DNA from: Actinacidiphila yeochonensis CN732
GTDB lineage: Bacteria > Actinomycetota > Actinomycetes > Streptomycetales > Streptomycetaceae
Direction: 5' to 3'
NCBI RefSeq assembly: GCF_000745345.1
Contig: NZ_JQNR01000005.1
Coordinates: forward strand, 744,001 to 808,000
DNA: 64,000 nt
Shown piece after piece: positions 2,722-24,961 of this stretch; position 1 is the first letter of the stretch; each line of letters opens with the position of its first letter. A program made the position numbers and the translations under genes. The notes below the pieces were generated by a model. It was given only the letters and a program-made list of their open reading frames with translations, did no database searches and was not told where the DNA came from.

Positions 2722-2771
2722 ACGGCCACGCTACGGCTCCGCGCGCCGGGTGGCACACCCGTTTCCCGCCA

Positions 2772-2811: not shown

Positions 2812-2816
2812 CACGG

Positions 2817-3284: not shown

Positions 3285-3445
3285 GCGGCCTTCTCCCGCT
3301 TGAGGTACGCCACCAGCTGCTCCGGGTTGTTCGGGCCGGGCACCACCTGGACCAGCTCCCAGCCGTCCTCGCCCCAGGTGTCGAGGATCTGCTTCGTCGC
3401 GTGCACCAGCAGCGGCACGGTCGCGTATTCCCACTTCTTCGCCAT
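3281..3445 (-). CDS. DUF4177 small protein
   Basis: A 54-residue gene from ATG 3445, short but clearly conserved in style: [20 protein letters not shown] followed by [20 protein letters not shown] and a Lys/Arg/Glu C-terminus. The pattern K-W-E-Y-x-x-V-P ... L-x-x-x-G-x-D-G-W-E-L-V is that of DUF4177, small beta-rich proteins of unknown function. In Streptomyces it commonly precedes ridA in this neighbourhood, and here its TGA overlaps the ridA GTG. It diverges from the first ArsA ATPase gene across 277 bp that should hold both promoters. Confidence 0.85.
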
Positions 3446-3722
3446 GGCGCGACTCTAGTGCCTCTCCCGGCAAGGTCTGCCCCGGTCGCGGCACTGGCGC
3501 CCCCGCCCGCCCCCACCCGCCCCGGCCCGCGCCGCCCGCCGTCCGCCCGCCCGCCGCCAGCCCGGCGCGCCCGCGCCTCACCCGCCCCGGCCGTCCCGCG
3601 CCACGCCCGCCCGGCGCCCTCGGGTGGACGCGCCGTACCGTTCCTTCCGCCGCGCCACCACGTCCGGGCGGCAACAGGCGGCCGGGGCGGTGGGCGGGCC
3701 GCCGAATGGTTAGGCTCGCAAG

Positions 3723-5036
3723 GTGAGCCCTCAACAGTCATCAGCCGTCCGGCTCCATGTGGTGACCGGCAAGGGCGGCACAGGCAAGACGACGGTCGCC
3801 GCCGCGCTGGCGCTCGCCCTGGCGGCGGAGGGCCGCCGGGTGCTGCTGTGCGAGGTCGAGGAGCGGCAGGGCATCGCCCAGCTCTTCGAGACCGAGGCGC
3901 TGCCGTACGAGGAGCGGCGGATCGCCTCGGCCTCCGGCGGTGGCGAGGTGCACGCGCTGGCCATCGACGCCGAGCTGGCGATGCTCGACTACCTCGACAT
4001 GTTCTACAAGCTCGGCCGGGCCGGGCGGGCGCTGCGCAAGCTCGGCGCGATCGACTTCGCCACCACCGTCGCCCCCGGCCTGCGCGACGTGCTGCTCACC
4101 GGCAAGGTCTGCGAGGCGGTGCGGCGCAAGGACAGTGCGGGCTGGCCGGTGTACGACGCGGTGGTCCTCGACGCCCCGCCGACCGGCCGGATCACCCGCT
4201 TCCTCAACGTCAACGACGAGGTGGCCGGGCTGGCCCGGGTGGGCCCGATACACAACCAGGCGCAGGCGGTGATGCGGGTGCTGAAGTCCGCGCAGACCGC
4301 GATCCACCTGGTGACGCTGCTGGAGGAGATGCCGGTCCAGGAGACCGTCGACGGGGTGGCCGAGCTGCGGGCGGCCGGCCTGCCGGTGGGAGCGGTGATC
4401 GTCAACATGGTCCGGCCGGTGCTGCTGGGCGACGGCGAGCTGTCCGAGGTCGCCGAGGCGGGCGGCGCCGCGGTGGGCCGGCGGCGGGCCGCGGTGGCCC
4501 GCGCCCTGTCGCAGGCCGGCCTGGGCGGCGCGCGGCGCGGCGGGGTGGCCGAGCGGCTGGTCGACCCGCTGCTGGCGCAGGCCCACGAGCACGCCCAGCG
4601 GGTGGTGCTGGAGCGCGACCAGCGCGCCGAGATCCTCGGCCTGGGCCTGCCGGTGCGGGAGCTGGAGCTGCTGGGCGACGGGGTCGACCTCGGCGGCCTG
4701 TACCGGCTGGCGGAGAGCCTGCGCAAGCAGGCGGCGGCCGCGGCCGGCCCGGGTGGCGGCTACGGGGGCACGGCCGCGGCGGACGGCGGCGCCGGCGGCC
4801 TGGACCCGGTCGCGTCCACCCCGCCCGCCGCGCACAGCGACGACCCGGCGGACGGTACCGACGACGCCTGGGTCGAGGAGACCGCCGACGGCGTCGAAGA
4901 CACGGGAGACGTGGAAGGCGCCGAAGGCGCGGAAGGCGTAGAAGAGGACGGCCCGGGGAACGAAGGCCGAGGCGGCGCCGGGACCGGCTCCGGGGTCCCC
5001 CGAGGCGCGGCGCCCGATGGAGGGTCGGACGGATGA
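3723..5036 (+). CDS. ArsA/Get3-family ATPase, first copy
   Basis: 437 residues from GTG 3723. A deviant Walker A loop (GKGGTGKTT, residues 16-24) with the signature Lys, and the [10 protein letters not shown] motif, place it in the ArsA/Get3 (anion-transporting ATPase-like) family. These proteins couple ATP hydrolysis to conformational change in a dimer. There is no arsenical-resistance gene nearby and the metal-binding Cys residues of ArsA are not evident, so arsenite pumping is unlikely. The last 100 residues are an acidic, low-complexity tail (Asp/Glu/Gly/Ala). Its TGA overlaps the ATG of the second ATPase, suggesting that the pair forms a heterodimer. The gene pair directly upstream of wblA is a conserved Streptomyces arrangement. 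Confidence 0.88.
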
Positions 5037-6412
5037 GCCTGCAAAGCCCCCTGCTGGAGGTCGATCCCCTGCTGGACGACCCCAAGACCCGCATCATCGT
5101 CTGCTGCGGTTCCGGCGGTGTCGGCAAGACCACGACCGCGGCCGCGCTCGGGGTGCGCGCCGCCGAGCGGGGGCGCACGGCGGTGGTGCTCACCATCGAT
5201 CCCGCGCGCCGGCTCGCCCAGTCGATGGGTCTGAGCGAACTCGACAACACCCCGCGCGAGGTGGCCGGAATCGATCGGTCGGCCGGCGGCTCGCTGCACG
5301 CGATGATGCTGGACATGAAGCGGACGTTCGACGAGGTCGTCGTCCAGCACTCCGACCCCGAGCGGGCGCGGGCGATCCTGGAGAACCCCTTCTACCAGTC
5401 CCTGTCGGCCGGTTTCGCGGGCACGCAGGAGTACATGGCGATGGAGAAGCTCGGGCAGCTGCGGGCCCAGGACGCCTGGGACCTGATCGTCGTCGACACC
5501 CCGCCCAGCCGCAGCGCCCTGGACTTCCTGGACGCGCCCAAGCGGCTCGGCTCGTTCCTCGACGGGCGGTTCATCAAGCTGCTCATGGCCCCGGCGAAGG
5601 TCGGCGGCCGGGCCGGGGTGAAGTTCCTCAACATGGGGATGTCGATGATGACCGGCACCCTGAGCAAGGTGATGGGCGCCGGGCTGCTGCGGGACGTGCA
5701 GACCTTCGTGGCCGCCATGGACACCATGTTCGGCGGCTTCCGCAGCCGGGCCGACGCCACCTACCGGCTGCTCCAGGCGCCCGGGACGGCGTTCCTGGTG
5801 GTGGCCGCTCCGGAGCGGGACGCGCTGCGGGAGGCCGCGTACTTCGTGGACCGGCTGGCAGCCGAGGACATGCCGCTGGCCGGCATGGTGCTGAACAGGG
5901 TGCACGGCAGCGGGGCGGACCAGCTCACGTCCGAACGGGCCCTGGCGGCGGCGGAGGCGCTTGAGGACGTGCGGGCGGAGGCGCGCGCGGCGGCGGAGGG
6001 GGCCGCGGAAGGCGGCACAGCGGGTGCGGAGGGCACGGCGCGTACGGCAGCCACGGCGGGCACCGGGAAGGCGTCCGGCGCCGGGCGCGGCGCGGGCAGG
6101 GCCGGAAAGTCCGGGCGGGGCCGCATGGTGGATCAGCCGGACGGGCAGACTGACGGGGGCGGCGGAGGCAGCGCGGACAGCGCGCCGGACCCCGGGGACA
6201 GCGCGGAGCTGCTCGCCGCGGGTCTGCTGCGGCTGCACGCCGAACGGATGCAGGTGGTCGCGCGCGAGCGGCGCACCCGCGACCGCTTCGTCTCCGTGCA
6301 CCCCGAAGTGCCCATGGTCGACGTCACGGCGCTACCCGGCGACGTACACGACCTGGAGGGGCTGCGGGCGATCGGCCTGCGTCTGGGCGGCGGTCAGCCG
6401 GCCGCGGCGTAG
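5033..6412 (+). CDS. ArsA/Get3-family ATPase, second copy
   Basis: 459 residues from ATG 5033, overlapping the previous stop (ATGA). The deviant Walker A loop GSGGVGKTT (residues 26-34), [14 protein letters not shown] and [19 protein letters not shown] are diagnostic of the ArsA/Get3 family. An Ala/Gly/Arg-rich insertion (about residues 310-390) interrupts the C-terminal part before the conserved end ([20 protein letters not shown]), so the insert is probably a disordered loop. It is translationally coupled to the first copy and likely works with it as a heteromer. Its 3' end overlaps the convergent wblA gene by 19 bp. The larger open frame starting at 3401 is an artefact of GC-rich coding. 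Confidence 0.88.
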
Positions 6413-11618: not shown

Positions 11619-11692
<74 letters not shown>

Positions 11693-11706
11693 CTCCAAAG
11701 CAGCAG

Positions 11707-11769: not shown

Positions 11770-12620
11770 CTACGGGTTCGGATCGTCTCCGAAGAGGCCG
11801 TCCATGACCGTGGCACCGGTCTGGATCACCGGGCGGATCTGCTTGCGGTAGACCTCCTCGGTGACAGCCGTGCTGGAGTGCCCCACCAGCCGGGAGATCT
11901 CCTCCAGCGGCACCCAGCGATCCGACAGGATCGACACAAAGCTGTGTCGCAGCTCACGCGGAGTCCACTCGGCCGGATCGATCCCCGGAGCGGCGGCGAG
12001 GGCAGTACGGAGGGCCCGGCGGACGTGTGACGAGTCGAGCTGCCTGCCCACGGCGGAGTGGAAGACCAAGCCGTTCTCCTCCCACCTGTCGCCGGCCGCG
12101 TAGCGGTCCCAGCCCTGATCGACCCAATGATCTTTCAGTGCCTCGACGCACCGCGCCGGCAGGGCGAGGGTCCCGCGGGACTTCCGGGTCTTCGTGTCGC
12201 CGCTGGTTCGCACCGAGCGCCACACGGCGATGTGCGGCGGGACCGGCGGGTTCGTACTCGGACTGCCGTCGAGGAAGACGTGGTCCCAGGTGAGCGCCCG
12301 CAGCTCCTCGGTCCGGGCGCCGGTCAGAAGCGACACGACGATGTAGGCCCGCATCGGCGACTTCTCCGCCGCCAGGAGCACCGCCTCAGCCTGAGCGAAG
12401 GTCAGCGCCTTGGACGGTCTGCTGGGCTGCCCGGCGGGTACCGAGCAGAGCTCGACCACGTTGCGCTTCACCTCGTCCCGCGCCATGGCCCGCTTCACCG
12501 AGCGGTTCAGGCACGAGTGCAGCCCCTCCAGCATCCGCGTGCTCAACGTCTTCGCCTTCACCGCAAGCCACTTGTCCACGTCCTCGGCGCCGAGGTCCCG
12601 CAGCTTCCGGGCACCCGGGT
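11770..12620 (-). pseudogene. Tyrosine integrase, N-terminus removed by an IS insertion
   Basis: About 283 C-terminal codons of a phage/AICE-type tyrosine recombinase. GARTEELRAL carries the first catalytic Arg, TPRELRHSFVSILSD the second Arg region, RLVGHSSTAVTEEVYRKQI the His and nucleophile Tyr. Intact relatives are about 400-450 residues; here the reading frame enters the left end of an IS256-like element at 12621, so the arm-binding domain and part of the core-binding domain are gone. The missing N-terminal codons are not found on the other side of the IS. An in-frame TTG within the IS end could start translation but would give a protein without DNA-arm binding. The location next to tRNA-Pro is typical of an integrated island. 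Confidence 0.88.
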
Positions 12621-13982
12621 GTGTCAATTTAACGGCTGATCTTGGTTGTTGGGGTTCAGTTGTTGGCCGGGGTGAGCCTGCCTTCGAAAGCGATCTGGAA
12701 GGCGTTCAAGGGTGCCTTCCAGCGCATGGTCCAGCGCTTGCGGCCCTTGCCGGTCGGATCCAGGCTCATCAGTGCCATGTAGACGCACTTCGAGGCGGCG
12801 GCCTCGGTGGGGAAGTGGCCGCGGGCACGGACGGCCTTGCGTATGCGGGCGTTGACGGACTCGATGGCGTTCGTCGAGCAGATGACGGTGCGGATCTCGA
12901 CGTCGAAGGAGAGGAAGAGCACGAACTCCGCCCAGGCGCTCCCCCAGAGCCTGATGATCGCCGGGTACTTCTTCCCCCAGGCGTCCTGGAACTCTCCGAA
13001 GCGTTCGGCCGCAGCGCTCTCGTTCGACGCGGTGTAGACGGGCTTGAGCGCCTTGGCGATCTTGTCCCAGTCCGCGCGCGAGGCGTATCGGATGCTGTTG
13101 CGCAGGAGGTGAACGATGCACGTCTGCACCATGGTGCGGGGCCAGACCGTCTCGACGGCGTCCGGCAGGCCCTTGAGTCCGTCGCAGACCAGCATCAGCA
13201 CGTCGTCCAGGCCGCGGCTTTTCAGCTCGGTGAAGACCTGCAGCCAGTACTTCGCGCCCTCGCCGCCGTCGCCGGCCCAGATGCCCAGGATGTCCCGGGT
13301 GCCCTCGGTCGTGACGGCCATGACGACGTAGACGGGCCGGTTGGCGACCTTCCCGTCCCTGATCTCGACGTTGATGGCGTCCACGAACAAAACGGGATAG
13401 ACGCGGTCCAGCGGCCGGTTCTGCCATTCGGCCATGCCGTCCATCACCTGGTCGGTGATGGTGGAGATGGTCTGCTGGGAGACCTCGGCGCCGTAGACCT
13501 CGGCCAGGTGCGCGGAGATCTCCCCGTGGGTGAGGCCCTTCGCGGACAGCGACAGCACCCTCTCGTCCACGCCCGTCAGCCGACGCTGCCGCTTCCTGAC
13601 GATCTGCGGCTCGAAACTGCCCTCCACATCCCGGGGCACCTTGACCTCGACCGGCCCGACATCCGTCAGCACGGTCTTCCCCCGGCTGCCGTTGCGGCTG
13701 TTGCCGCTGTTCCTCCCCACCGGATCGTGCCTCGTCATAGCCGAGGTGATCGGTGATCTCGCCCTCCAGGACGGACTCCAGCACCCGCTTGGCCAACTAC
13801 TGCAGCAGCCCACCGGCACCGGTCAGCTGCAAGCCCTCACCCCGAGCCCGCTCGACCAACATCGCGATCAACTGCTCGTCCGACGTGGCCGCACCAGCCA
13901 GCTCAGGCACCGACTCCGGCTCGATCGACATCTCACTCACTTGACGTCTCTATGAGAGACAGATCCACCGTTGATTAGACAC
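12621..13982 (-). mobile_element. IS256-family insertion sequence, degenerate
   Basis: A 1362-bp element bounded by imperfect inverted repeats. The left end starts GTGTCAATTTAACGGCTGATC and the right end, on the opposite strand, GTGTCTAATCAACGGTGGATC, about 16 matches over the first 22 bases. The flanking 8 bp differ (ACCCGGGT on the left, TCCCGATC on the right), so there is no target-site duplication, and the two flanks belong to different broken genes. This suggests a deletion adjoining the IS or recombination between two copies. Confidence 0.85.
12656..13940 (-). pseudogene. IS256-family transposase, disrupted by a stop and a frameshift
   Basis: Reading starts at GTG 13940 (VSEMSIEPESVPELAGAATS) and meets a TAG at about 13797-13799 where relatives have Gln (GLLQ-stop-LAKRVLES). 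The frame then shifts at about 13735, where HLGYDEA should become HLGYDKHDPVGRNSG. After the shift it is open to 12656 with the DDE residues in VLFVDAINVEIRDG, LVCDGLKGLPDA and STNAIESVNARIR. Two independent lesions mean it is inactive. The ORF beginning at 13819 is only the post-shift part with an artefactual N-terminus. Confidence 0.88.
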
Positions 13983-14306: not shown

Positions 14307-14558
14307 CTACCCGGCGGCAGACGATCCGTGACTACGCCGCCACCGCCCGTGAACAGAAGAAGAGCTGTCGCCTCGCGTGCAGTGCTCGAGCAAATCACGC
14401 ATGGCGTCACTGTGGCGCTGCAGCACCAGCCGACCGTCTCCGTCGCTGAAGGCGACGATGTCGCTGCCCGGATCCAGTCCCGCTTCGGCCAGCGGCCCCA
14501 GGGGGATGGACACCCGCCCCTCATCGTCGATCACCAGTTCCGCGGGGGTCCTCGTCAC
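14307..14558 (-). CDS. AbrB/MazE/SpoVT-like DNA-binding protein
   Basis: 83 residues from GTG 14558. The N-terminal 45 residues (TRTPAELVIDDEGRVSIPLG, then AEAGLDPGSDIVAF and GRLVLQR) have the swapped-hairpin AbrB/MazE pattern: short strand, D-x-x-G-R-V-x-I-P, then G-L-x-P-G-x-x-I. Such proteins are transition-state regulators or antitoxins. No toxin is recognisable next to it; the following gene remnant is cut by the IS. It diverges from the Vsr gene across 52 bp, so it may autoregulate and control the defence operon. The last 20 residues are low complexity. Upstream codons to 14651 are unsupported. Confidence 0.7.
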   Translation of the reverse strand: MTRTPAELVIDDEGRVSIPLGPLAEAGLDPGSDIVAFSDGDGRLVLQRHSDAMRDLLEHCTRGDSSSSVHGRWRRSHGSSAAG

Positions 14559-14610
14559 ACGGCCATTGCGCCCTTCCGGACCCGTGTTCCGCCGGTGGGA
14601 GGATGGAGAA

Positions 14611-15045
14611 ATGTCCCCGACAGCATCGTCACCAGTCGTCGCAGCACGCATGAGCCGTCAGTCGTCCCGCGATACGGCCCAAGAACTGGCTGTTCGCCGA
14701 CTGCTGCACGGCAGTGGGCTCCGCTATCGAGTGCACGTGCGCATTCCAGGCATGCCACGGCGTTCCATGGACGTCGCTTTTGGTGGACTTAAGATAGCGA
14801 TCTTCTTCGACGGCTGCTTCTGGCACGGCTGCCCCGTACATGCCACACATCCCAAAGCGAACGCCGAGTGGTGGCGGACAAAGCTGGACCGGAACATGGC
14901 TCGAGATCAAGAGACGACGCAACACCTGCGCTCCGACGGTTGGGTCGTCCTGCGTTTCTGGGAGCACGAGGCGGCGGAGGATGTCGTGCGCCGCGTCGTG
15001 CTGGCCGTCGAGGCGAGGCGCTCGTCTCCCCCCGGCAGATCCTGA
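14611..15045 (+). CDS. vsr: Very short patch repair endonuclease (Vsr)
   Basis: 144 residues from ATG 14611, preceded by a GGAGG-like site. Vsr motifs are clear: SMDVAFGGLKIAIFFDGCFW (catalytic Asp near 54) and HGCPVH with the Zn/active-site His near 72, then WWRTKLDRNMARD and GWVVLRFWEHE. Vsr nicks 5' of the T in T:G mismatches that arise from deamination of 5-methylcytosine. Its presence argues that the methyltransferase 9 kb downstream makes 5-methylcytosine. It stands 275 bp upstream of the Z1 gene, so it may be transcribed separately. Confidence 0.93.
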   Translation: MSPTASSPVVAARMSRQSSRDTAQELAVRRLLHGSGLRYRVHVRIPGMPRRSMDVAFGGLKIAIFFDGCFWHGCPVHATHPKANAEWWRTKLDRNMARDQETTQHLRSDGWVVLRFWEHEAAEDVVRRVVLAVEARRSSPPGRS

Positions 15046-15320
15046 CCGGGCACTCTGTGCAGCTCACGGTCCTGCTCGGAGCTTCCTCGTGGGACGGCTC
15101 CGGTCCTCGCTCGTCCGCCCCGCCCTTCCCGAAGCCTGCTGTGCAAGCATCGTACCGATTCATACATCGCCGTTCGGCTCACCCGAAAACCTCTCGACGT
15201 TGTATAAGTGACGCGTGTCCGTGGAGCTGAGGGGGCCGACCGGCACAGCGCCCAGGAGCGGGCGCAGGGGGCCGGATCCGAGCGGGAGCCGGCGCACGAG
15301 AGTGGGGGAAGCCGCATCCC
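15046..15320 (+). promoter_or_regulatory. Leader region of the defence operon
   Basis: 275 bp without a supported gene. A TATAAG at 15203-15208 could be a -10 element, but no clear -35 hexamer is seen at the right distance. The purine-rich stretch GTGGGGGAAG about 10 bp before the Z1 start may act as the ribosome binding site. Confidence 0.3.
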
Positions 15321-17873
15321 ATGGTGGACGAGTTCGACGACAACTACGACACGTTCAAGGCATTCTTGGATCTGTTCGCCCCGCCGGAGGCGGTCAAGCG
15401 CCTCGAACGTCTGGGCATCCCGCAGGACACCATCGAGCGCATCCGTGAGCGGCACGAGAAGGAGACCGTCCGGATCAAGGAGCTCGAGGAGCCGCACGCC
15501 GTAATACTCGGCAACCGGGACACCTGGTACACCGGACCGCAGACCAAGGACAAGTGCTGGCCGGCGATCGTCACGGAACTCATCAAGGACGGTTGGCCAC
15601 AGACTCCCGCGATCGACGACCTGGACAATTCCTCGACCCGTGTCGTATCGCTGTTGAACCACCCCAAGGAGAGGTCATTCGCCACGCGTGGGCTGGTGGT
15701 CGGCTACGTCCAGTCCGGGAAGACGACCAACTTCACGTCCGTCATGGCCAAGGCCGCCGATCGTGGCTACAAGCTCTTCATCGTCCTGGCAGGCATCCAC
15801 AACGGGCTGCGGCGCCAGACCCAGGCCCGTCTGGTGCAGCAGCTTGTGGAGCCGAATCCCGCGATGTGGTCGCAGTTGACGGGTCTGGACAAGGACTTCA
15901 CCCCGACGGAAAATCCGGCTTCCTACTTCGGCAAGAGCAATCGGACGCACGTGCTGTGCGTGGTGAAGAAGAACGCCACGGTCCTGCGCAAGCTCGCCCA
16001 GTGGCTGGAGAAGGCGTCCGACTACCTCGGGGACTGCCCCGCGCTGATCATCGACGACGAGGCCGACCAGGCCACCGTGGCGACGAAGTCGATCAACCCC
16101 CTGATCCTCAGGATCATGAGCAGCCTGCCGAAAAGCGCCTACGTCGGGTACACGGCCTCCCCCTTCGCCAATCTGTTGATCGACCCGAGCGCCGAGGACC
16201 TGTACCCCAAGGACTTCGTCGTCAATCTGCCCAAGCCAGCCGGCCACTTCGGTACCGAGGTGCTGTTCGGACGCTACGCGCTGGACGGTGAGGACCCAGA
16301 GCAGGTCGATGACGGCCACGACATGATCCGGTCGATCCCCGAGGACGACGTTTCGTGTGTACGTCCCGAGACGAAGGCGGATGTCGACGGCTTCGAGCCC
16401 GTCATGATCGACACGCTCCGGTCTGCCGTCGAGTACTTCTGGCTGGTCACGGCCGCTCGGCGGGTTCGCGGGAACGGAAATCCGCACAACACGATGCTGA
16501 TCCACACCAGCGTCAACACTGCGGTTCACAACAGCTTCAAGAGGCCGCTGGAGTTCCTGCGCGAAAGGGCTGCCCGTACCGTCGACGACCCCGGCTTCAT
16601 CGCCCGACTGCGTGATCTGTGGGACCAGGAGACCGCTCGTGTCCCCGCTGCGGACTTCGGTGAGACCAAGGTGGAGTTCGAACAGCTGCTGGTCGAGCTG
16701 CCGGGAATTCTCCGCAGCTGTCGCGTCATCATGGACAACTCCAGCAGTGAGGATCGTCTGGACTACGAGAACGGCCCTGTCGTGGCCATCGCTGTAGGCG
16801 GCAACACTCTGTCCCGGGGGCTGACGCTGGAGGGCCTGTCGGTCAGCTACTTCGTCCGTGCCGTCTCCGCGTACGACACGCTGCTGCAGATGGGACGTTG
16901 GTTCGGCTTCCGGAACGGCTATGCCGACCTGCCCCGCATCTGGATGACCGATGAGCTGGCGGAGTGGTTCCGGCACCTGGCGACGGTCGAGACCGAGATG
17001 CGCCGCGACATCGACGTCTATATGACCGAGGACGAGGACCCGCTCACCTTTGCCGTACGCCTGCGCACGCATCCCGCCCTACGCGTGACCGCTGCGGCCA
17101 AGATGCGCGACGCTGTCACGGCAGCCTCGTCGTACGGTGGCAAGCGGGTCCAGACACACTACTTCCGCACCGATGCGGACTGGCTGCGCGGGAACATCGA
17201 TGCCGCACGCACTTTGATCAAGGCATCCGCCGCGCACGGGAGCCGGGTGGACGAGCGCCCCGCCGAAGGACGGTACGTCTTCCACCAGGTGCCCCACGAC
17301 CTCGTGATCGACTTCCTGTCGGACTACCGGTTCCACGAGAAATCACCCGAGAACGATGCGGACCTGATCAAGGGCTACATCCGCAAGCGCGTCTCCGCAG
17401 CCGGCTCGTTGCAGCGATGGAACGTCGCAATCGTGGGCAGCCCCCAGGGGGAGGACTTCACTTTCGCACCCGGCGTGACCGTCGGTCGGAACACCCGTGC
17501 GCGACTCGCCGTCACCAGCCCGACGCCGGGCTTCGCGGACATCAAGACCCTGATGAGCCGCCGCGACGCAGGTGTGGATCTGTCCGGGGATGTGGGCAGA
17601 CTGACCGACAAGGCGATCATGGAACTGCGGCAGTCCGAATTCCCGGACACCGGCCTCCTCGTCCTCTACCCCATCGACAAGCTCTCGACCCCGAGCCCCT
17701 CGAAGAAGTTGCGTGACCCGCTGGACGCCGAGGAGCACGTCATCGGTGTCGGTCTGGTCTTCCCCGTGCCCGCGAACAGGGACAGCACGGTGGAGAAGTA
17801 CATCTCCGCGAACCTTGCCAATGTACGGATCGAGGAAGAGGACTACAGCCTCCTCGACAGCGAGGAGGCATGA
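15321..17873 (+). CDS. Z1-domain P-loop ATPase (helicase-like), defence operon
   Basis: 850 residues. The P-loop GYVQSGKTTN is near residue 128-137 and the Walker B DDEAD near 245-249. A superfamily 2-like YTASPFAN is near 277 and an arginine-finger-type motif QMGRWFGFRNGY near 523. These match the Z1 domain family (PF10593), which is typically found with restriction-modification genes, MORC/MutL-like ATPases and PD-(D/E)XK nucleases; this association was described by Iyer, Abhiman and Aravind (2008), from memory. Likely role: ATP-driven translocation or remodelling of target DNA for the nuclease. Its stop overlaps the start of the next gene (ATGA). The N-terminal 100 residues look like a helical adaptor. 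ATG 15321 is used; GTG 15324 is possible. Confidence 0.92.
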   Translation: MVDEFDDNYDTFKAFLDLFAPPEAVKRLERLGIPQDTIERIRERHEKETVRIKELEEPHAVILGNRDTWYTGPQTKDKCWPAIVTELIKDGWPQTPAIDDLDNSSTRVVSLLNHPKERSFATRGLVVGYVQSGKTTNFTSVMAKAADRGYKLFIVLAGIHNGLRRQTQARLVQQLVEPNPAMWSQLTGLDKDFTPTENPASYFGKSNRTHVLCVVKKNATVLRKLAQWLEKASDYLGDCPALIIDDEADQATVATKSINPLILRIMSSLPKSAYVGYTASPFANLLIDPSAEDLYPKDFVVNLPKPAGHFGTEVLFGRYALDGEDPEQVDDGHDMIRSIPEDDVSCVRPETKADVDGFEPVMIDTLRSAVEYFWLVTAARRVRGNGNPHNTMLIHTSVNTAVHNSFKRPLEFLRERAARTVDDPGFIARLRDLWDQETARVPAADFGETKVEFEQLLVELPGILRSCRVIMDNSSSEDRLDYENGPVVAIAVGGNTLSRGLTLEGLSVSYFVRAVSAYDTLLQMGRWFGFRNGYADLPRIWMTDELAEWFRHLATVETEMRRDIDVYMTEDEDPLTFAVRLRTHPALRVTAAAKMRDAVTAASSYGGKRVQTHYFRTDADWLRGNIDAARTLIKASAAHGSRVDERPAEGRYVFHQVPHDLVIDFLSDYRFHEKSPENDADLIKGYIRKRVSAAGSLQRWNVAIVGSPQGEDFTFAPGVTVGRNTRARLAVTSPTPGFADIKTLMSRRDAGVDLSGDVGRLTDKAIMELRQSEFPDTGLLVLYPIDKLSTPSPSKKLRDPLDAEEHVIGVGLVFPVPANRDSTVEKYISANLANVRIEEEDYSLLDSEEA

Positions 17874-18895
17874 ACGAGAACACTCTCCGTCGGCTTCTCG
17901 ATGACAACTGGACCGCGCTCGACGCCGAGCCCGTATCGGGTGAACGCCGTCTCAGGGTGTCCCGACTGCCCGTTGTCGCGGATCAGGGTCCACTTGCCGT
18001 GGCGGTCGATCACGACGGTCACCGTCATCTTTTGGTGCCGATCCATGCTCACCGCAAGGTGCGCCAGGGGCTGGACGGCCCCGTCCTGCAAATGCGCAAG
18101 CGGCCCCTGGAAGACGCGGACACCTACCAGAACTACGTGGACCTCGGGTGCTTGCGGACCGACCTCGATGACCTGTTCACGAACCTGTGCATCGACGTAC
18201 TCGATGCGGTCGAGGGACTCCCCGAGAACCCGGTCAAGGCTCTCTACGGAGTTCTCGATCGATGGAAGGCCCTTTTCCAGACGCAGAGCGCCCCGCTGGG
18301 CAGCGAACAGCTCGCCGGGCTCTTCGGTGAGCTGTCGCTGCTCAATCGCCTGCTCCTGAGCGACCCCAGCGCCCATCGACTCTGGCGGGGCCCCCGCGGG
18401 GACCGACACGACTTCTCTGCCGGGACCACTGCCGTCGAGGTCAAAGCAAGCATGGCCGGCGAGGGACGACGGCCGCGGATCCACGGCCTCGACCAACTCG
18501 AAGCACCTGCGGGCGGCGCACTCGGGCTCGTCTGGTTCCGGCTGCAACGCACCGGAGTGAACGGTCCCGGAGCTGCGTTCACGGATGCGGTGGACCTGGC
18601 GCGTCGCCTGTGCGACGACGAATTCGCGCTGCTCGGACTGCTCGCATCGGCCGGGTACCACCCCTCCGACGCGGACCGCTATCAGGATGTGCACTTCGTG
18701 ATCGTCGAAGAGCGGTGGTACCGGGTGGACGAGACGTTCCCAGGTCTGACGAACCGGATACTCAAGGAAGCAGGCGTACCGGTGTCGGTGCTGGACGTCG
18801 AATACACCGTCGACCTGTCCGGCGAGATCCCGGCGCCCCTGTCGCATGACCAGGTGTCACAGATGATCGACGCGCTGATTCGGGAGCCCATGTGA
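17870..18895 (+). CDS. PD-(D/E)XK nuclease (DUF4420-like), defence operon
   Basis: 341 residues. The nuclease core is seen as GLFGELSLLNRLL (Glu near 153), HDFSAGTTAVEVKAS with D181, E190 and K192 (the D...E-x-K triad), and a C-terminal extension of about 140 residues. It matches the DUF4420 'PD-(D/E)XK motif protein' family that accompanies Z1 genes. It is the probable restriction nuclease of the system. It overlaps the Z1 stop by four bases and the GHKL ATPase start by four (GTGA), so the three are translationally coupled and likely made in fixed proportion. Confidence 0.88.
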   Translation: MNENTLRRLLDDNWTALDAEPVSGERRLRVSRLPVVADQGPLAVAVDHDGHRHLLVPIHAHRKVRQGLDGPVLQMRKRPLEDADTYQNYVDLGCLRTDLDDLFTNLCIDVLDAVEGLPENPVKALYGVLDRWKALFQTQSAPLGSEQLAGLFGELSLLNRLLLSDPSAHRLWRGPRGDRHDFSAGTTAVEVKASMAGEGRRPRIHGLDQLEAPAGGALGLVWFRLQRTGVNGPGAAFTDAVDLARRLCDDEFALLGLLASAGYHPSDADRYQDVHFVIVEERWYRVDETFPGLTNRILKEAGVPVSVLDVEYTVDLSGEIPAPLSHDQVSQMIDALIREPM

Positions 18896-20856
18896 TCACG
18901 CCCGGCTGGTTCTCCCAGCCTTATCCGCCGGAGGGTGCGAGTGCGGCCGAGGGCATCCGCAATCAGCTCGGCCGCCCGGAGCTCGACCTGCTCACCATCC
19001 TGGTGCGGGAGTCCGCCCAGAACAGTTGGGACGCCCGGCTCCCTCATGCATCCGGCCCGGTCGATTACAGCCTCGACATGTGGACAGTGGGCGCGGGACA
19101 CACCAACGCGTGGCGCGACATGCTGCTCAACGGTGCGCCGTCGGCTTCGGGAAATTTCCCCCTCCGCGATTGCCTCAAGCAAGCGACGATCCAGCTGCTC
19201 GCCGTCTCCGACCGCGGCACGCGGGGACTCGGTGGCCCGACCAGGGCCGACACCGCAGTCGGTCCCGATCGGGACTTCGTCTCCTTCATCCGCAACATCG
19301 GCGAGCCTCGGGAAACACCCTTGGGCGGTGGTACATACGGCTTCGGCAAGGGCATCTTCTACCTTCTGTCCAAGTCCGGAACGGTGCTCGTGCACTCTCG
19401 TTGCCGGACCGCGCAGGGCCACGAGACGCGACTCATCGGCTGCAGCCTGTGGAAGAGCTACGTCGCGAAGGAAGCAGACGACGGCCGGCGTTACACGGGC
19501 CGGCACTGGTGGGGTGACACGTCGGGCAGCGTGGTGGAGCCCTTGGTGGGTCATGCCGCCGAAGCAGCGGCTCAACGTCTCGGGCTCAGACCCTTCGGCC
19601 CCGAGGAGACCGGGACGACCGTCGTGGTCGTCGACCCCTTTCTCGACGGGATGGAACCACACGCAGCGGCCGAATACCTTGCCGAGACCATTTCCTGGCA
19701 TCTCTGGCCGAAGATGATCTCCCGTGCCGACGCACCGCCCGCGATGCGCTTTTCCGTGCGCTGCAACGGTATTGCCCATCCGGTGCCCGACCCGCGCGAG
19801 ACCCGGCCGCTCAGCTTGTTCGTCGCCGCCTACGAGAAGATGGCGGGCCAGGAGGGCAGCGACGTGGCGTGCCGAAACCCCAAACGCCACTTGGGTCGTC
19901 TCGGTCTGGTGAAACGGATCATGCCTGCGCTGGTGCCGACCCACGCATCCCGCATGCTGGGCATCGAGGACCTCGTCCATCACGTCTGCCTGATGCGGCC
20001 GGCCGAGCTGGTCGTCACGTACTTCACGGGACCGAAGCCTCCGAGTGAGAATCTTGGCTACGCAGGGGTGTTCCGGGCCGACGAAGCCATGGACGAGGTC
20101 TACGCCAAGGCCGAACCGCCCACGCACGACGCATGGAATCCGCAGTCGCTCGAAAGACCGGAAAGTACGTTCGTGCAGGTGACCTTCCGACGCATCACGG
20201 AAGCCTCGGAGGGCCTTCTCTCCCTCGGAGGAGTCGCTCGTTCCGGTAGCAGCAATGTCGCGCTGGGAGCAGCTAGCTCACTCTTCTCCGGCCTGGTCGG
20301 CGGCGCGTGGGGAATCGGCGGGGACACGGCGTACTCCAAACCCGGCAGCACCATCACGCGCAGCAGCCGGGCTGCCCGTGAGGAGGACGGCTCGGAAAGC
20401 TCGCCCGAACCTCGTCCCGGTGCAGGGGGAGCGTCCCGGGTTCGGGGCGAGTCCGACACGGGCGAGGCGTATCCGTACCAGGGCAACACCGACCACGACC
20501 GTTCGAGCACCCCACGACGTCGTCCGCGCGTGCAGTACGTGGGTGAGCCCTACTTCGACGACCGGGGTGACGACGCCGTGCTCGTCCAGGAGTTCCTGCT
20601 GCCGGTACCCGGGAGTCAGCGGGTGCGGATCGAACTCGCCGTCACCCTTCCCGGTACCGGAGGCCGGGAGACAGATCCTCCCGTGGGGGCCAGCATGCCC
20701 ACGCTCATAGGTTGGGAGAGCGCCGATGGCATGGTAGATGCATCCGAGGCCTACGTGATCGAGGGAGGCGAGTCCGTCTGGCGTGCCCTGGTGCGCCCGG
20801 CTCCCGACACCATGACCGAGATAGCCGTCAAGGTCGAGGCGGTGCAAGCTCCGTGA
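18892..20856 (+). CDS. MORC/MutL-like GHKL ATPase, defence operon
   Basis: 654 residues from GTG 18892. The Bergerat ATP-binding fold is clear: motif N LVRESAQNSWDA (E40, N44), motif G1 SDRGTRGLGG (D107, G109) and motif G2 GGGTYGFGKGIFYLLS (near 145-160). Residues 160-430 should form the transducer and strap regions of a GHKL machine; about 450-560 is Ser/Gly-rich and probably flexible, with a beta-rich end. This architecture fits the bacterial MORC/MutL homologues found in restriction-modification systems. ATP-gated dimer closure on DNA is the expected mechanism. It is not a histidine kinase: no H-box or response regulator is present. Confidence 0.88.
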   Translation: MITPGWFSQPYPPEGASAAEGIRNQLGRPELDLLTILVRESAQNSWDARLPHASGPVDYSLDMWTVGAGHTNAWRDMLLNGAPSASGNFPLRDCLKQATIQLLAVSDRGTRGLGGPTRADTAVGPDRDFVSFIRNIGEPRETPLGGGTYGFGKGIFYLLSKSGTVLVHSRCRTAQGHETRLIGCSLWKSYVAKEADDGRRYTGRHWWGDTSGSVVEPLVGHAAEAAAQRLGLRPFGPEETGTTVVVVDPFLDGMEPHAAAEYLAETISWHLWPKMISRADAPPAMRFSVRCNGIAHPVPDPRETRPLSLFVAAYEKMAGQEGSDVACRNPKRHLGRLGLVKRIMPALVPTHASRMLGIEDLVHHVCLMRPAELVVTYFTGPKPPSENLGYAGVFRADEAMDEVYAKAEPPTHDAWNPQSLERPESTFVQVTFRRITEASEGLLSLGGVARSGSSNVALGAASSLFSGLVGGAWGIGGDTAYSKPGSTITRSSRAAREEDGSESSPEPRPGAGGASRVRGESDTGEAYPYQGNTDHDRSSTPRRRPRVQYVGEPYFDDRGDDAVLVQEFLLPVPGSQRVRIELAVTLPGTGGRETDPPVGASMPTLIGWESADGMVDASEAYVIEGGESVWRALVRPAPDTMTEIAVKVEAVQAP

Positions 20857-21752
20857 CCAAGCGGGTTCTTCCCTATCGGATTCCGTCGGAGGACGTCGTC
20901 ACCGCCGGGTACTGGTCGCTGGTGACCGAGGACGGGGAAATGCTCCTGCCGGAAGCACTTCCGGACTGGGATTACCACATGGACCTGCACCTGCGCAGGA
21001 GCGTCCGGGTCGATCTCGACGGAGCACGCTCACAATCGGGGCTCCCGCCCGACGCGGCCCTCCAGCTTGCCGCCATGTGGACGGCCACCGGCTCCAATCT
21101 CAGCGGACCGGCCCAACACCTCCGTCTGGCAGGTGTCGGTACGACCGAGGTCGTTCTCGATTTCACGCTCCGAGCAGCGGACCTGGGTGGGCTCCTCCTG
21201 CTCGACACCGCGCTGTTGCTTGCCGAGCGACGTGTCGACGCCCGCCCGTCGTCGCCCCGAAGAGCAGGCTCGGTCCTGTGGAGCCGGCGCGACTCCCTAC
21301 GCCTCCAGGGCGATGCTCCTCAGTTCCCCATGGCCGTGATCGACTTCTCCCTCACGTCCTTCCCGGATGACGCCGCCTGGCATCTTCAGATCAGCGGCAG
21401 TCTGGAGAGCGCGACCATGGGCTCGCTGCTCCTCCTGGTCAATGAGCGGAACACCGTCACTGCGGCGGCATTCCAGAATGCGGGCAAGCCTCGACCGATC
21501 GACCGGATCGTCCTGTCCGCCGTGTACGCCGACGCTGCCCGAAGCATGATCGAACACGCCCTCGGCATAGACGAGTTCGTCGAGGACGCAGACTTTCCCG
21601 AAGGATCTCTCGGCGCCACCTTGGTGAGCCTGTTCGACCGACTCCTTCCAGGACAGTCGATCACCGACATCCGCCTTCGCCGGAGACATTCGCCCGCCCT
21701 GTTCGCCTCCGACCTCCAGGCCGCGGTCAAGATATTCGAGGTGCCACGATGA
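20853..21752 (+). CDS. Uncharacterised component of the defence operon
   Basis: 299 residues from GTG 20853, which overlaps the ATPase stop (GTGA); the stop overlaps the next start (ATGA). I do not recognise a family. The protein is acidic, with no signal or membrane segment. It starts KRVLPYRIPSEDVVTAGYWS and has repeated amphipathic strands (DFTLRAADLGGLLLLDTALL, ending FASDLQAAVKIFEVPR), suggesting a mixed alpha/beta fold. No Cys/His cluster, P-loop or nuclease triad is visible. Tight coupling on both sides implies an obligate subunit, possibly a scaffold between the GHKL ATPase and the methyltransferase subunits. Confidence 0.8.
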   Translation: MTKRVLPYRIPSEDVVTAGYWSLVTEDGEMLLPEALPDWDYHMDLHLRRSVRVDLDGARSQSGLPPDAALQLAAMWTATGSNLSGPAQHLRLAGVGTTEVVLDFTLRAADLGGLLLLDTALLLAERRVDARPSSPRRAGSVLWSRRDSLRLQGDAPQFPMAVIDFSLTSFPDDAAWHLQISGSLESATMGSLLLLVNERNTVTAAAFQNAGKPRPIDRIVLSAVYADAARSMIEHALGIDEFVEDADFPEGSLGATLVSLFDRLLPGQSITDIRLRRRHSPALFASDLQAAVKIFEVPR

Positions 21753-23593
21753 GCTTTCTGTACCCCCGGCTCCTCGCCGCTCAGGCCCGCCCGCTCTACG
21801 AGGAATATCAATACCTCTCACCCATCGACCTCACCGGTCGGGTGGCCACCGCCCACGACTCCGCCGTGTATGTGGCAACCGGCGGCGATCGGGTCTCCAC
21901 CGACCAGCTGATGGAATTGCGTGCCGCCGTCGTAGATCTCGCCAGGAGCGCCGGTTTCCCCTTCGAGTCCGACCGTGCCCGGAACGCCGAATTCGACCTT
22001 CGCATTGCTGCCCTGCTGCACGACCGGACGGGCATGGTCCCGGCCGAAGCAGCCTCCCGGGACGTCTGGGCATTCCTGGCGCTCGTGCTGCTCCCGGACG
22101 TCGCCTACTGGCGCTACCCGAACCCACCCAAAGACCGTGTCCTGGCCACGGACCTCACCCGACACGTCTTCGGACGACTGTGGTGGCGCGCACAACTCGT
22201 CCGGTCCCCCGACAGCACCGACCCCTACAGTGCCCTCAACATTCTGGGCGAGGCCGCCTTCGACCAGATCTACGCACGCCGCGCCGCACTCGGCGGCAGC
22301 CCCCACGTCGTACGCGCGATCCTGCGCGTGTGGAACGAACTCGATCTCACCGGCCTCAGAGAACGTGAGGCACTCCAGGACTTCCTCAAGCGACTGCTGC
22401 GCCTGGCGCCCTTCGTACTCTTCGACGGAGTGGAGGAGCAGCAACTCGACGAGGAAATGAGGGCGGTCGCCCAGGAATCGCTGGACGCCCAGCGCCGTGC
22501 CCAGTCCCCCACCGGCGAGGCCGGCTCGGAACCCCGCCAGGACACGTCGATCGGCAACACACCCGCCGCCGGCACACTCTCGACGGCATGGCCTGTCGAG
22601 GACGCGGTTCAGCCGAGGCGGAATGCTGAGCCTCTGGGCACTCGGCGGTTCCGGTCGGTCGAAATCTGCGCGGGTGGTGGGGCGCAGGCGCTCGGCCTGG
22701 AACGGGCCGGCTTCGATCCCGTCCTGTTGATCGACAGCAAGGCCGACGCGTGCTTCAGCATCGACCTCAACCGGCCGGACTGGGAGGTGGTCTGCATGGA
22801 CGTGATGCAGTTCCGACCCGACATGCGCCCCGAAGCGCTCGGAGTGGATCTGCTCAGCGGTGGTCTGCCTCGTGTGGCTTCCGTGGCCGCGGCCGGGCGG
22901 ACCGAAGACACGGAGGAGCGCAGAGTGCTCATGGCGGCTGTCGAGCTGGCCTGCAGCATGCAGCCGCGCGCTCTGCTGCTCGAGAACCTTCCGGATCTCG
23001 TTGAAAGCCCCCAGTTCGCCGCGGATCGCGCGATCATCGAAGCGCGACTCGGGGAAGTCGGATATCAGGTTCAGTGGAGAGTCCTCAACGCAGTCGATTT
23101 CGGGGTGCCGCAGAACCGGAAGAGCGGCTTCATGGTGGCCCTGCGGGACCCCTGGTCGCGCAGATTCTCCTGGCCCCAGCCGGCTGGCCTGCCGGCTCCG
23201 ACTGTCGGCGAAGTCCTCGGCCCCTCGATGTCCTCACAGGGCTGGCCCGGCGCGGAACATTGGATCAAGAACGCCGACCATGTGGCGCCTCCCCTCGTCG
23301 GGGGGTCGGACCGGCGTGGGGGGGCTGACCTCGGTCCCACCGGCAGCAAGAGAGCATGGGCGGCCCTCGGCGTGAACGGGATAAGCCTCGGCGACACACC
23401 ACCGGATGCGCTTTTCCCCGTGGACGGGGTTCCCAGACTGACCGTCGAGCAGGCTGCGATGATCCAGATGATCCCCGAGGACTGGAGGTTCTTCGGTGGC
23501 AAAACGTCCCGGTATCGTCAGATCGGACACGCAATGCCCCCACCTCTGGCGACTGCTGTCGGCCAGGCCCTCGCATCAGCTCTCGCCGGATAA
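21749..23593 (+). CDS. DUF6339-like domain fused to a catalytically altered C5-methyltransferase
   Basis: 614 residues. Residues 1-250 (MSFLYPRLLAAQARPLYEEY...) form a helical domain that resembles DUF6339 proteins (from memory). Residues 290-614 are a C5 cytosine methyltransferase fold: motif I VEICAGGGAQALGLERAG, motif VI LENLPDL, motif VIII FGVPQNRKSGFMVAL, motif X RQIGHAMPPPLATAVG. In motif IV the normal P-C-x-x-S reads SGGLPRVASVAAAG: the catalytic Cys is Arg375 (codon CGT, 22871-22873). The AdoMet pocket appears kept, so the protein probably binds cofactor and DNA but cannot methylate. It is coupled to the upstream subunit and lies 9 bp before a canonical methyltransferase, suggesting a heteromeric enzyme or a recognition subunit. 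Confidence 0.85.
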   Translation: MSFLYPRLLAAQARPLYEEYQYLSPIDLTGRVATAHDSAVYVATGGDRVSTDQLMELRAAVVDLARSAGFPFESDRARNAEFDLRIAALLHDRTGMVPAEAASRDVWAFLALVLLPDVAYWRYPNPPKDRVLATDLTRHVFGRLWWRAQLVRSPDSTDPYSALNILGEAAFDQIYARRAALGGSPHVVRAILRVWNELDLTGLREREALQDFLKRLLRLAPFVLFDGVEEQQLDEEMRAVAQESLDAQRRAQSPTGEAGSEPRQDTSIGNTPAAGTLSTAWPVEDAVQPRRNAEPLGTRRFRSVEICAGGGAQALGLERAGFDPVLLIDSKADACFSIDLNRPDWEVVCMDVMQFRPDMRPEALGVDLLSGGLPRVASVAAAGRTEDTEERRVLMAAVELACSMQPRALLLENLPDLVESPQFAADRAIIEARLGEVGYQVQWRVLNAVDFGVPQNRKSGFMVALRDPWSRRFSWPQPAGLPAPTVGEVLGPSMSSQGWPGAEHWIKNADHVAPPLVGGSDRRGGADLGPTGSKRAWAALGVNGISLGDTPPDALFPVDGVPRLTVEQAAMIQMIPEDWRFFGGKTSRYRQIGHAMPPPLATAVGQALASALAG

Positions 23594-23602
23594 GATCGCC
23601 CC

Positions 23603-24961
23603 ATGCGCGCGCCAGGCCCCCTCGCCTCCGATCCCATCACAGTGGTCGATCTTTTCAGCGGCTGCGGCGGCTTCACGCAAGGGTTCCACGAGTTCCGGCT
23701 GGCAGGCGCCGACGAAGCCGGCCCCGTCTTCCAGAGCGTCGCCGCCGTCGAGCACAACCTGGCGGCCGCAGCCACATACGCGATGAACTTCGGAAGTGGC
23801 CGCCTCGACAAGGACTTTCCAGCCGCCCGTGTCCACTTCGGCGACATCGAGGAGTGGGAGCCGACTCCCGAAGCCCTCCACGCCGACGTCGTGGTCGGTG
23901 GGCCGCCCTGCCAGGGGTTTTCCGCTCTGAACCGTAACAAGAAAGGCACTGAGCGCAATCGCCTGTGGGAGGAGTACGTCCGCATCGTCGCCGGCGTCCG
24001 TCCCAAGGTCTTCGTGATCGAGAACGTCGATCGTTTCCTCAAGTCGGACGAGTTCCGGAACCTTCTCAACGAAGTCGAAGAGGGCGGCCTTCTGGCCGAG
24101 TACCGGCTCGTCGATCCTCCTGGCCATCAGCCGACGGACACGCACGAGACCAAGGTCAAGCGCTACCTCCTGAACTCGGCGAACTACGGAGCCGTGCAGG
24201 CCCGTCGGCGGGCCATCGTCATCGGAATACGCCGTGATGTCGACACCGGCCGCGCGATGGCGTATCCGGTAGCAACTCATGCCAGACGCCCTCCGTCCAA
24301 GCAGACCTCGGTCATCCCGGCCCAGCCGCTGGACGGGGTTCCCGCGGAACCTGCGTATTGGCAGGCCGTGGACAGTGTCTTCGAGGAGTCCTCTCGACTC
24401 ACGATCCGGGGAACGGAGCTTCCCGACGACAAGGAGCACGTCGCCGCGGTGAATGCCGTGCTCCCCGGCGCGTTCACCACTGAGCAACTCCATATCGGAC
24501 GCAACCCGGAACCGATCTCCCAGGCCCGCTACCAGGTGATTCCCAGGGGTGGGAACCGCAAGGACCTCCGCCGGAAGTGGTTCACGGTCACCGAACGCGG
24601 TGACATCAGGATCTTCGATGTCGAGAAGCCTGCCGGCGTGACCACCACGGTGAGGTATCTGTCCACCGCGAGCTGGGACAATCACACAACCGGCACGGGC
24701 GATGTCATGGGCCGACTCCGCCTCGGCGAGCCCTCCGTCACCATCCGAACCGAGTTCTTCAAGCCGGAGAAGGGCCGCTACCTCCATCCCACGGAGCCCC
24801 GCCCGATCACCCACTTCGAGGCAGCCCGCATCCAGGGCTTCCCTCTCGATTTCCGCTGGTGCGGCTCGAAGACCGACATCGCCCGCCAAATCGGCAACGC
24901 CGTCCCCATCCCCCTGGGGAAGGCGATTGCCTCGGCAATCCACGCGTACCTGCGTGGCTGA
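23603..24961 (+). CDS. DNA (cytosine-5-)-methyltransferase
   Basis: 452 residues with all expected C5-methyltransferase motifs in order: I VVDLFSGCGGFTQG (residues 13-26), IV GGPPCQGFS with catalytic C103, VI FVIENVDRF (E140), VIII QARRRAIVIGI, then a target-recognition region (about 225-385), and IX/X FEAARIQGFP and QIGNAVPIPLGKAIA. It makes 5-methylcytosine in a sequence that cannot be predicted from here. It protects host DNA from the nuclease of the same operon. It starts 9 bp after the pseudo-methyltransferase and ends the operon. Vsr at the operon head fits 5-methylcytosine production. Confidence 0.95.
   Translation: MRAPGPLASDPITVVDLFSGCGGFTQGFHEFRLAGADEAGPVFQSVAAVEHNLAAAATYAMNFGSGRLDKDFPAARVHFGDIEEWEPTPEALHADVVVGGPPCQGFSALNRNKKGTERNRLWEEYVRIVAGVRPKVFVIENVDRFLKSDEFRNLLNEVEEGGLLAEYRLVDPPGHQPTDTHETKVKRYLLNSANYGAVQARRRAIVIGIRRDVDTGRAMAYPVATHARRPPSKQTSVIPAQPLDGVPAEPAYWQAVDSVFEESSRLTIRGTELPDDKEHVAAVNAVLPGAFTTEQLHIGRNPEPISQARYQVIPRGGNRKDLRRKWFTVTERGDIRIFDVEKPAGVTTTVRYLSTASWDNHTTGTGDVMGRLRLGEPSVTIRTEFFKPEKGRYLHPTEPRPITHFEAARIQGFPLDFRWCGSKTDIARQIGNAVPIPLGKAIASAIHAYLRG

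Follow-up and report, generated by a model that had tools for sequence, protein, structure and literature searches.

The window, a stretch of 64,000 nucleotides from Actinacidiphila yeochonensis CN732 (contig NZ_JQNR01000005.1, positions 744,001 to 808,000; genome of 7.8 Mb in 6 contigs), harbors vsr and an operon of six genes on the same strand. They encode a Z1 motor, a DUF4420 nuclease, a GHKL ATPase, a protein of 299 amino acids (aa) termed p299, a DUF6339 domain fused to a dead C5-methyltransferase domain (dMT), and an intact C5-methyltransferase (MT). The genes 1-5 are linked by 4-bp overlaps, and MT begins after a 9-bp gap. The open reading frames (ORFs) bear out this arrangement, six co-directional genes at 15321-24961 with vsr upstream, as described in an earlier note on the same DNA. 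Pfam matches and motifs agree with its assignment of a Z1 motor, a D...E-x-K nuclease, a GHKL ATPase, and a dead and an active C5-methyltransferase. ATP-driven restriction-modification, proposed there, still appears to be the likeliest function. It is suggested here that the genes may form an ATP-dependent, 5-methylcytosine (5mC) based defence system of the restriction-modification type for the site GCCGGC, with dMT as the reader; this reading is put at about even. Profiles from Pfam, NCBIfam and PADLOC were run on ten proteins, and PADLOC counts refer to the matches listed. The features are:

14650-15045 (+): vsr, very-short-patch mismatch endonuclease, 131 aa from its ATG; TIGR00632 108.6 bits (cut-off 97.85), PF03852 60.8
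15321-17873 (+): Z1-domain SF2-type motor, 850 aa; PF10593 220.8 bits
17870-18895 (+): DUF4420 PD-(D/E)XK nuclease, 341 aa; PF14390 167.6 bits
18892-20856 (+): GHKL ATPase, 654 aa, GTG start; GHKL motifs
20853-21752 (+): p299, 299 aa, GTG start; position kept in relatives
21749-23593 (+): DUF6339-dMT fusion, 614 aa; ORF call
21749-22504 (+): DUF6339 domain, about residues 1-252 of the fusion; PF19866 45.6 bits (cut-off 23.2) over residues 96-237
22631-23593 (+): dMT, pseudo C5-methyltransferase domain, residues 295-614 of the fusion; DNA_methylase domain (Pfam), catalytic Cys replaced
23603-24961 (+): MT, intact C5-methyltransferase of family MT-A, 452 aa; PF00145 172.1 bits

The Z1 protein contains GYVQSGKT (residues 128-135), IIDDEAD (243-249) and DTLLQMGRWFG (519-529), and reaches 399.7 bits with the NCBIfam profile MzaC (cut-off 1500). 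The DUF4420 protein carries the motif D181...E190-V-K192, of which D181, E190 and K192 are read as the probable catalytic residues, and reaches 90.4 bits with MzaD (cut-off 420). The GHKL protein carries the motifs RESAQNSWDA, DRGTRGLGG, GGGTYGFGKG and ETGTT. Its residues E40, N44, D47, D107, G147, G150, G152, K153, G241 and T242 are invariant in 13 aligned sequences. It matches the PADLOC profile PDC-M33A with 33.1 bits, but no Pfam or NCBIfam family, and a profile of the 13-sequence alignment found no solved structure at E≤1. The earlier label of a MORC-like ATPase is therefore supported as far as the GHKL motifs, but not in its strict sense. No family match to p299 was found in Pfam, PADLOC or NCBIfam. 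Its weak AlphaFold2 model (pLDDT 64.8) consists of a beta-sandwich N-terminus and a helical C-terminus. Foldseek returned 31 matches at E≤0.001, including immunoglobulin-like domains and glycosidases, with a query-normalised TM score of at most 0.29 among the best 50. The AlphaFold2 model of DUF6339 is poor (pLDDT 55.0). In MT, the motifs GGPPCQ, ENV, QARRR and GNAVP are intact, and the enzyme is predicted to be the GCCGGC writer. Vsr is expected to mend the T:G mismatches left when 5mC of the methylated site is deaminated.

Conservation and layouts of the locus

A first sample of 30 loci (L016-L045) was retrieved from genome contigs with the GHKL protein. All of them contain Z1, DUF4420, GHKL, p299 and DUF6339 in the same order and on the same strand, and vsr within the stretch read. 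DUF6339 and dMT are fused in 29 of the 30. Such a conserved gene order is not chance. For a sample independent of dMT, 391 Streptomycetales genomes were searched for the DUF6339 family, yielding 92 places in 90 genomes, which were read with about 10 kb per side where the contigs permitted. A dMT was called at a profile score of at least 350 bits. By this measure, dMT is fused to DUF6339 at 17 places, encoded separately at 61 and absent at 14, among them L099 with a dMT fragment. It occurs in 78 of the 391 genomes, about a fifth, and DUF6339 is a stand-alone gene in most sampled loci. Independent occurrence of the genes, which the earlier note had named as evidence against one system, was not found for the five core genes in the 30 close relatives. 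The methyltransferase part varies in the state of dMT and between two writer families, and Z1 and DUF4420 were not seen in many loci of the second layout described below.

Two layouts are distinguished. Type A is that of the window. In type B, GHKL, a gene of the size of p299 and DUF6339 lie on one strand, and a methyltransferase, dMT and vsr, partly together with Z1 and DUF4420, on the opposite strand. Z1 and DUF4420 were not seen in many type B loci within the approximately 10 kb read. The type A p299 and its type B equivalent show a weak profile likeness (hhalign probability 64). A methyltransferase with the PPCQ motif accompanies dMT in 77 of the 78 sampled loci. The exception, L165, is cut by a contig end, and L020, the other copy of this contig, shows the start of MT. 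The co-occurrence count demanded PPCQ alone; the other motifs were missed by the patterns in some rows. All 78 dMT-bearing loci contain vsr.

The divergent AbrB-like gene upstream, included in the earlier description, has a weak MazE_antitoxin match (17.3 bits, below the cut-off of 24.7), and is not conserved, with a tblastn match in 2 of the 30 loci L016-L045 (L035 and L038). It was rejected as a part of the system. Other genes accompany some of the loci. In L092, an SF2 helicase of about 1620 aa with a sacsin/TmtA-like N-terminal part (717-5576) is encoded divergently from the GHKL gene; it was profile-scanned in this locus alone, and genes similar in size occur in other type B loci. In L054, a gene (1892-3640) for a protein with a NERD nuclease-related and a protein-kinase-like domain precedes a Z1-GHKL-p299-DUF6339 locus; the searches made found no vsr, DUF4420 or methyltransferase there. 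A gene for about 1055 aa adjoins the DUF6339 gene in L048-L050; in L048 it matches UvrD helicase and PD-(D/E)XK.

Loss of catalysis in dMT

The window dMT has the motif GGLPRVAS at residues 371-378 (22859-22882), with Arg375 in the position of the catalytic Cys. Within 133 loci, including contigs represented in two sources, 107 ORFs with a dead METHYLTRANSFERASE domain were collected; 98 of them are distinct, 37 as fusions and 61 as separate genes. Arg stands at the position of the catalytic Cys in 97 and Ser in one; none has Cys. The residue is kept in all seven aligned active relatives and in 23/23 methyltransferases of the parent family beside NaeI or NgoMIV nucleases. Other motifs are affected unequally. 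Motif VI retains its Glu in 97 of the 98, and the Q and R of QxR persist in all; a single sequence has the second Arg of QxRxR, and in 86 His replaces the motif X Asn. Local decay of a methyltransferase was considered and rejected, because all 98 sequences share the loss of Cys. In a tree with 30 active sequences, the dead ones group together in a single clade (support 0.937). The loss of catalysis thus appears to be ancient and shared, with a single origin.

Three dMTs with Arg or Ser in place of Cys, encoded at L098:6777, L161:11811 and L175:7183, contain remnants (..AGKQ..) of the ancestral loop, which reads GGVPCPPFSxAGKQ in the active relatives. They are reported as presumable intermediate fossils of the catalytic loss. 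Two relatives that retain Cys were observed in system loci. One, in L048 (833-2162), is split over two frames and adjoins Z1. The other lies at the edge of the stretch of L163 (19099-19899), which also holds a dead copy.

Selection was compared by the ratio of nonsynonymous to synonymous substitutions (dN/dS; Nei-Gojobori medians of pairs with dS 0.1-1.5, the pairs being non-independent and their median dS 1.07-1.24). In type A loci, the medians are 0.161 for dMT, 0.163 for MT, 0.119 for DUF6339 and 0.179 for GHKL. The corresponding values in type B are 0.259 for dMT, 0.255 for DUF6339, 0.272 for GHKL and 0.304 for MT-A, the last from 9 sequences and 25 pairs. From these medians it follows that dMT is under purifying selection and constrained about as strongly as its neighbour genes.

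Among the fused dMTs, 36 of the 37 fall into one clade (support 0.65). Since L109 stands apart from it, the fusion with DUF6339 may have two origins, or a domain may have been swapped. The fusion itself is a Rosetta-stone link. Some methyltransferases regulate their own operon. With this precedent, dMT could be a transcriptional autorepressor or a protein that shields sites, and p299 or DUF6339 could carry the specificity of the system instead. This is considered very unlikely, as dMT is fused to the DUF6339 subunit of the GHKL triad and is found at 78 of the 92 places, in two gene arrangements.

Evidence for GCCGGC as the probable target site

The nearest active relatives of dMT, found by tblastn in plasmid records, are 40-47% identical. 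Nine of the first 16 plasmid matches were examined, and seven (H2, H3, H4, H10, H12, H13 and H14) adjoin a nuclease of the NgoMIV or NaeI type; next to H11 is an HNH gene, and next to H16 a gene that no Pfam family matches. Of the neighbours scanned, four are confirmed by Pfam as NgoMIV and two as NaeI nucleases. The gene after H2 matches PDB 1fiu (NgoMIV) over 286/286 residues (E 1e-188), and H2 is for this reason taken as M.NgoMIV itself, the nearest active relative of dMT. NaeI cleaves GCC/GGC. The cleavage of NgoMIV is given as G/CCGGC (PMC4081073); the same source prints NaeI as GCC/CCG, which is taken here for a misprint.

The presumed target-recognition core of dMT lies at 23285-23380. 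It is the best-kept stretch of the domain, with an identity between dead and active sequences of 0.68. The catalytic loop is the worst-kept with 0.25, and other non-overlapping segments range from 0.36 to 0.50. Among the active enzymes, the identity of the loop is 0.82. The window core is identical in 20-25 of 32 positions to seven NgoMIV/NaeI-linked enzymes and in 5-10 of 32 to five plasmid control C5-methyltransferases, two of which adjoin Eco47II and PmeII nucleases and three no annotated nuclease. Part of this gap arises because the controls are also less similar overall.

The best plasmid relatives of MT, H61 and H62, adjoin vsr and an NgoMIV nuclease. Of the further relatives, H63 sits in another Z1/PD-(D/E)XK locus, and H64 and H65 have vsr nearby. 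The association was also approached from the nucleases. In 394 Actinomycete genomes, NaeI was found in 25 and NgoMIV in 11. All 36 genome matches were taken and correspond to 34 regions, which contain the parent family of dMT in 22 cases, MT-A in 7, MT-B in 2 and none of them in 3 (L259, L260, L267). With the profiles used, no other kind of C5-methyltransferase was found in these regions; vsr is present in 22 of the 34. The sets of NaeI, MT-A and vsr in L258 and of NgoMIV, MT-A and vsr in L272 lie beside GHKL and DUF6339 genes and beside a GHKL gene, respectively. The GHKL triad therefore seems to occur alongside GCCGGC modification that is paired with different nucleases. In L240, L247 and L263, NaeI-type and NgoMIV-type nuclease genes lie close together, two families for one site. 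A hidden NgoMIV or NaeI nuclease was rejected for the system itself: in-house profiles yielded 0 matches (E 1e-3) among ORFs of at least 80 aa in the 133 loci, including the window.

The writers vary with the state of dMT. Fused dMTs are accompanied by MT-A in 14 loci and MT-B in 2, with no writer found in one; separate dMTs by MT-A in 9 and MT-B in 52. The 14 places without dMT have MT-A in 3, MT-B in 7 and neither in 4. The writer family thus switches while the reader family stays. Although writer and reader belong to different families, both point to GCCGGC as the probable target. In L092 and L105, MT-B has EQV as motif VI where ENV is usual, and retains PPCQ and QxRxR.

The target may nevertheless be another site, the shared families reflecting methyltransferase relatedness only. 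The overall identity of dMT to the GCCGGC-linked enzymes of just 43-47% would agree with this, and the neighbourhood count stands without a background rate. Each of the three distinct methyltransferase families present in these systems is found beside NaeI or NgoMIV, however, and a different target is regarded as unlikely.

Precedents for catalytically dead partners exist in DNMT3L for DNMT3A and METTL14 for METTL3. By analogy, dMT could be an allosteric partner that raises the activity or specificity of the active MT at GCCGGC, with no direct role in restriction. The constant company of a PPCQ methyltransferase (77/78 loci) and the mostly neighbouring position of the two genes in the loci listed fit such a role. 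The partner would, however, come from two families (MT-A 23, MT-B 54, one cut by a contig end, in 78 loci), and dMT from one. The fusions of dMT are to DUF6339 (37 of the 98 distinct sequences), and no dMT ORF contains a PPCQ methyltransferase. In addition, MT-A or MT-B occurs without dMT in 9 NaeI/NgoMIV regions and in 10 of the 14 DUF6339 loci classed as lacking dMT (one of them, L099, with a fragment). An allosteric role therefore seems unlikely.

Proposed mechanism and related systems

In the reading preferred here, MT would methylate the GCCGGC sites of the host, and Vsr would repair T:G mismatches arising at these sites. The dMT, derived from an enzyme of the M.NgoMIV/M.NaeI type, would still bind GCCGGC without methylating it. 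With DUF6339 as its tether to p299 and the GHKL ATPase, it would act as the specificity subunit of the complex. At an unmethylated GCCGGC, the GHKL clamp would close, and the Z1 motor and the DUF4420 nuclease would be recruited for cleavage. Methylated host sites would be passed over, and the signal would run through DUF6339 and p299. Phage defence is the presumed outcome. That a dead cytosine methyltransferase, fixed once, serves as the subunit reading site and methylation in a GHKL/Z1 restriction system for GCCGGC is a tentative proposal, held at somewhat below even confidence. Replacement of the catalytic Cys in enzymes of the M.HhaI type leaves or strengthens DNA binding, and DNMT3L is a eukaryotic analogy for a dead methyltransferase. 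A precedent for the motor is CglI/NgoAVII, in which a DEAD-Z1 protein with DNA-dependent ATPase activity triggers a site-binding nuclease (PMC4267653). In Caulobacter, the methylase ScmA, which modifies YGCCGGCR, acts together with a Vsr-like protein (PMC12907096); this is a lead and not a test.

The dMT could instead be a self-recognition brake on methylated or hemimethylated GCCGGC, which holds the machine inactive, or it could mark the loss of methylation for self-killing. The recognition core is retained, the exchange of Cys for Arg and the lost second Arg of QxRxR (kept in 1/98) would alter the base pocket, and host sites are many (183 GCCGGC in 64 kb). The same data fit the reading of unmethylated DNA equally well, and a brake is considered quite unlikely.

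Several observations weigh against dMT as a GCCGGC reader. The core can apparently do without it, because it is absent from 14 of the 92 DUF6339 places. DUF6339 proteins without dMT were found in six loci (L048-L050, L154, L157, L174), and in L048-L050 a different C-terminal extension replaces dMT. The threshold of 350 bits does not divide dead from intact enzymes: intact members of the parent family reach 385 bits, and the two Cys-bearing ORFs in the system loci L048 and L163 were left out by it. The position of the recognition core was assigned from motif order, and the overall identity of dMT is 0.30-0.35 to the controls and 0.43-0.47 to the GCCGGC-linked enzymes. The profiles of the parent family, MT-A and MT-B were built in-house, that of the parent family from NgoMIV/NaeI-linked enzymes. 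MvaI/BcnI and XhoI nucleases, used as controls, had matches in 1 and 3 of 197 genomes, too sparse for a background rate. GCCGGC is over-represented in the window, with 183 occurrences compared to 114 ± 9 in shuffled sequences, and thus not avoided. The proposed specificity rests on homology and neighbourhood, and methyltransferases that are 45% identical can have drifted in specificity.

The gene set has been published before as a prediction, which in the text available gives neither mechanism nor target. In the GHKL operons described in 2008 (Iyer et al., PMC2292703), the companions of the GHKL gene are a distinct type of SF2 helicase (DThhQXuRhFG), an E-D-ExK nuclease, cytosine methylases and Vsr. 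The link to this work, drawn in the earlier note, is confirmed. The helicase motif of the third type of MORC/paraMORC restriction-modification operon is matched by DTLLQMGRWFG of Z1, the nuclease gene of the restriction endonuclease fold by the DUF4420 gene (PF14390) and the GHKL protein by one with intact ATP motifs; a cytosine methylase and Vsr are also common to both. The available parts of that paper mention neither an inactivated methylase nor DUF6339, a gene like p299 or a target site. A defence system with a core of Z1, PD-(D/E)XK and C5-methyltransferase has been proposed, the six-gene Type I of which is tied to DNA repair endonucleases (Miller et al., 2022, PMC9523054). Core, gene number and the link to repair endonucleases agree with the window operon. 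The accessible text names neither the other three genes nor a dead methyltransferase or target, and the comparison covers the core, the gene number and the repair endonuclease. This proposal, the ancient and shared deadness, and GCCGGC as indicated by both methyltransferases had been missed by the earlier note.

The PADLOC search recommended there matched MzaC, MzaD and PDC-M33A to the first three genes. The Z1 (MzaC) and PD-(D/E)XK (MzaD) proteins of MZA (mzaABCDE) are homologous to those of the window, but both scores given above lie far below the NCBIfam cut-offs, and MZA was rejected. An AIPR protein (MzaE) was not among the matches listed for the ten scanned proteins. MZA was reportedly described by Gao et al. 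in 2020, and methyltransferases are said to be no part of it. PDC-M33, a PADLOC candidate, matches the window operon in its GHKL protein; PDC-M33C matches the type B DUF6339 protein of L092 (42 bits) and a homologue in L181, but is not among the best 25 matches of the window DUF6339. The matches listed for p299 include none to PDC-M33, and a literature search, narrow in reach, did not find the term. Type II systems with NgoMIV or NaeI share the methyltransferase families and often have vsr nearby. They use the family of MT, and their parent-family methyltransferase is active; in the window system its relative dMT, closer to M.NgoMIV than MT is, is dead, and ATP-driven proteins are added. CglI/NgoAVII also combines a DEAD-Z1 motor with a nuclease and a methyltransferase, but has three genes, a PLD nuclease with a B3 recognition domain, and the site GCCGC (PMC4267653). 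No Pfam match to a PLD or B3 domain was found in the window proteins scanned, the nuclease being DUF4420. Of the Druantia and DISARM profiles, the matches listed include the methylases DruM and DrmMII and no further Dru or Drm gene. In viral contigs, a DUF6339 relative is encoded by none of the 11 pattern matches.

A conserved dead methyltransferase as probable reader and the word GCCGGC look new, in an operon type already predicted. Narrow literature searches, which missed most subscription papers and preprints, found no relevant paper on inactive bacterial cytosine methyltransferases and neither a conserved pseudo-methyltransferase of this kind nor the assignment of GCCGGC. DUF6339 was absent from the results surveyed, with no search aimed at it alone.

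The predicted defence genes lie in a region of lower GC content, about 63-69% at 11-26 kb compared to mostly 69-78% elsewhere in the window (2-kb steps). Near them, a tRNA-Pro(cgg) gene (11619-11693) is followed by a tyrosine integrase ORF of 285 aa (11770-12627, -) and an IS256-family transposase gene (12656-13819, -), which abuts the start of the integrase ORF. The segment 11619-13819 resembles the margin of an integrated island, its integrase broken by an insertion sequence. A second copy of the tRNA-Pro 3' end, as an attR-type repeat, was not found within the window. A scan for promoters and terminators gave a result no better than shuffled sequence.

Operons with GHKL, Z1, nuclease, methylase and Vsr have been predicted since 2008, without a target site or recognition subunit in the available text of Iyer et al. 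and Miller et al. GCCGGC and a pseudo-methyltransferase tethered by DUF6339 provide testable hypotheses for both. If true, they would explain the choice of site in such systems, with a writer swapped between families that share GCCGGC, and would bear on the coupling of GHKL ATPases to DNA methylation. Dead methyltransferases elsewhere would be worth checking for a reader role before they are written off as decay products, and pre-methylation of GCCGGC would offer a practical entry route for DNA into many Streptomyces strains. The dMT would then parallel, in bacteria, the use that eukaryotes make of dead methyltransferases, lost catalysis having turned a modifier into a sensor.

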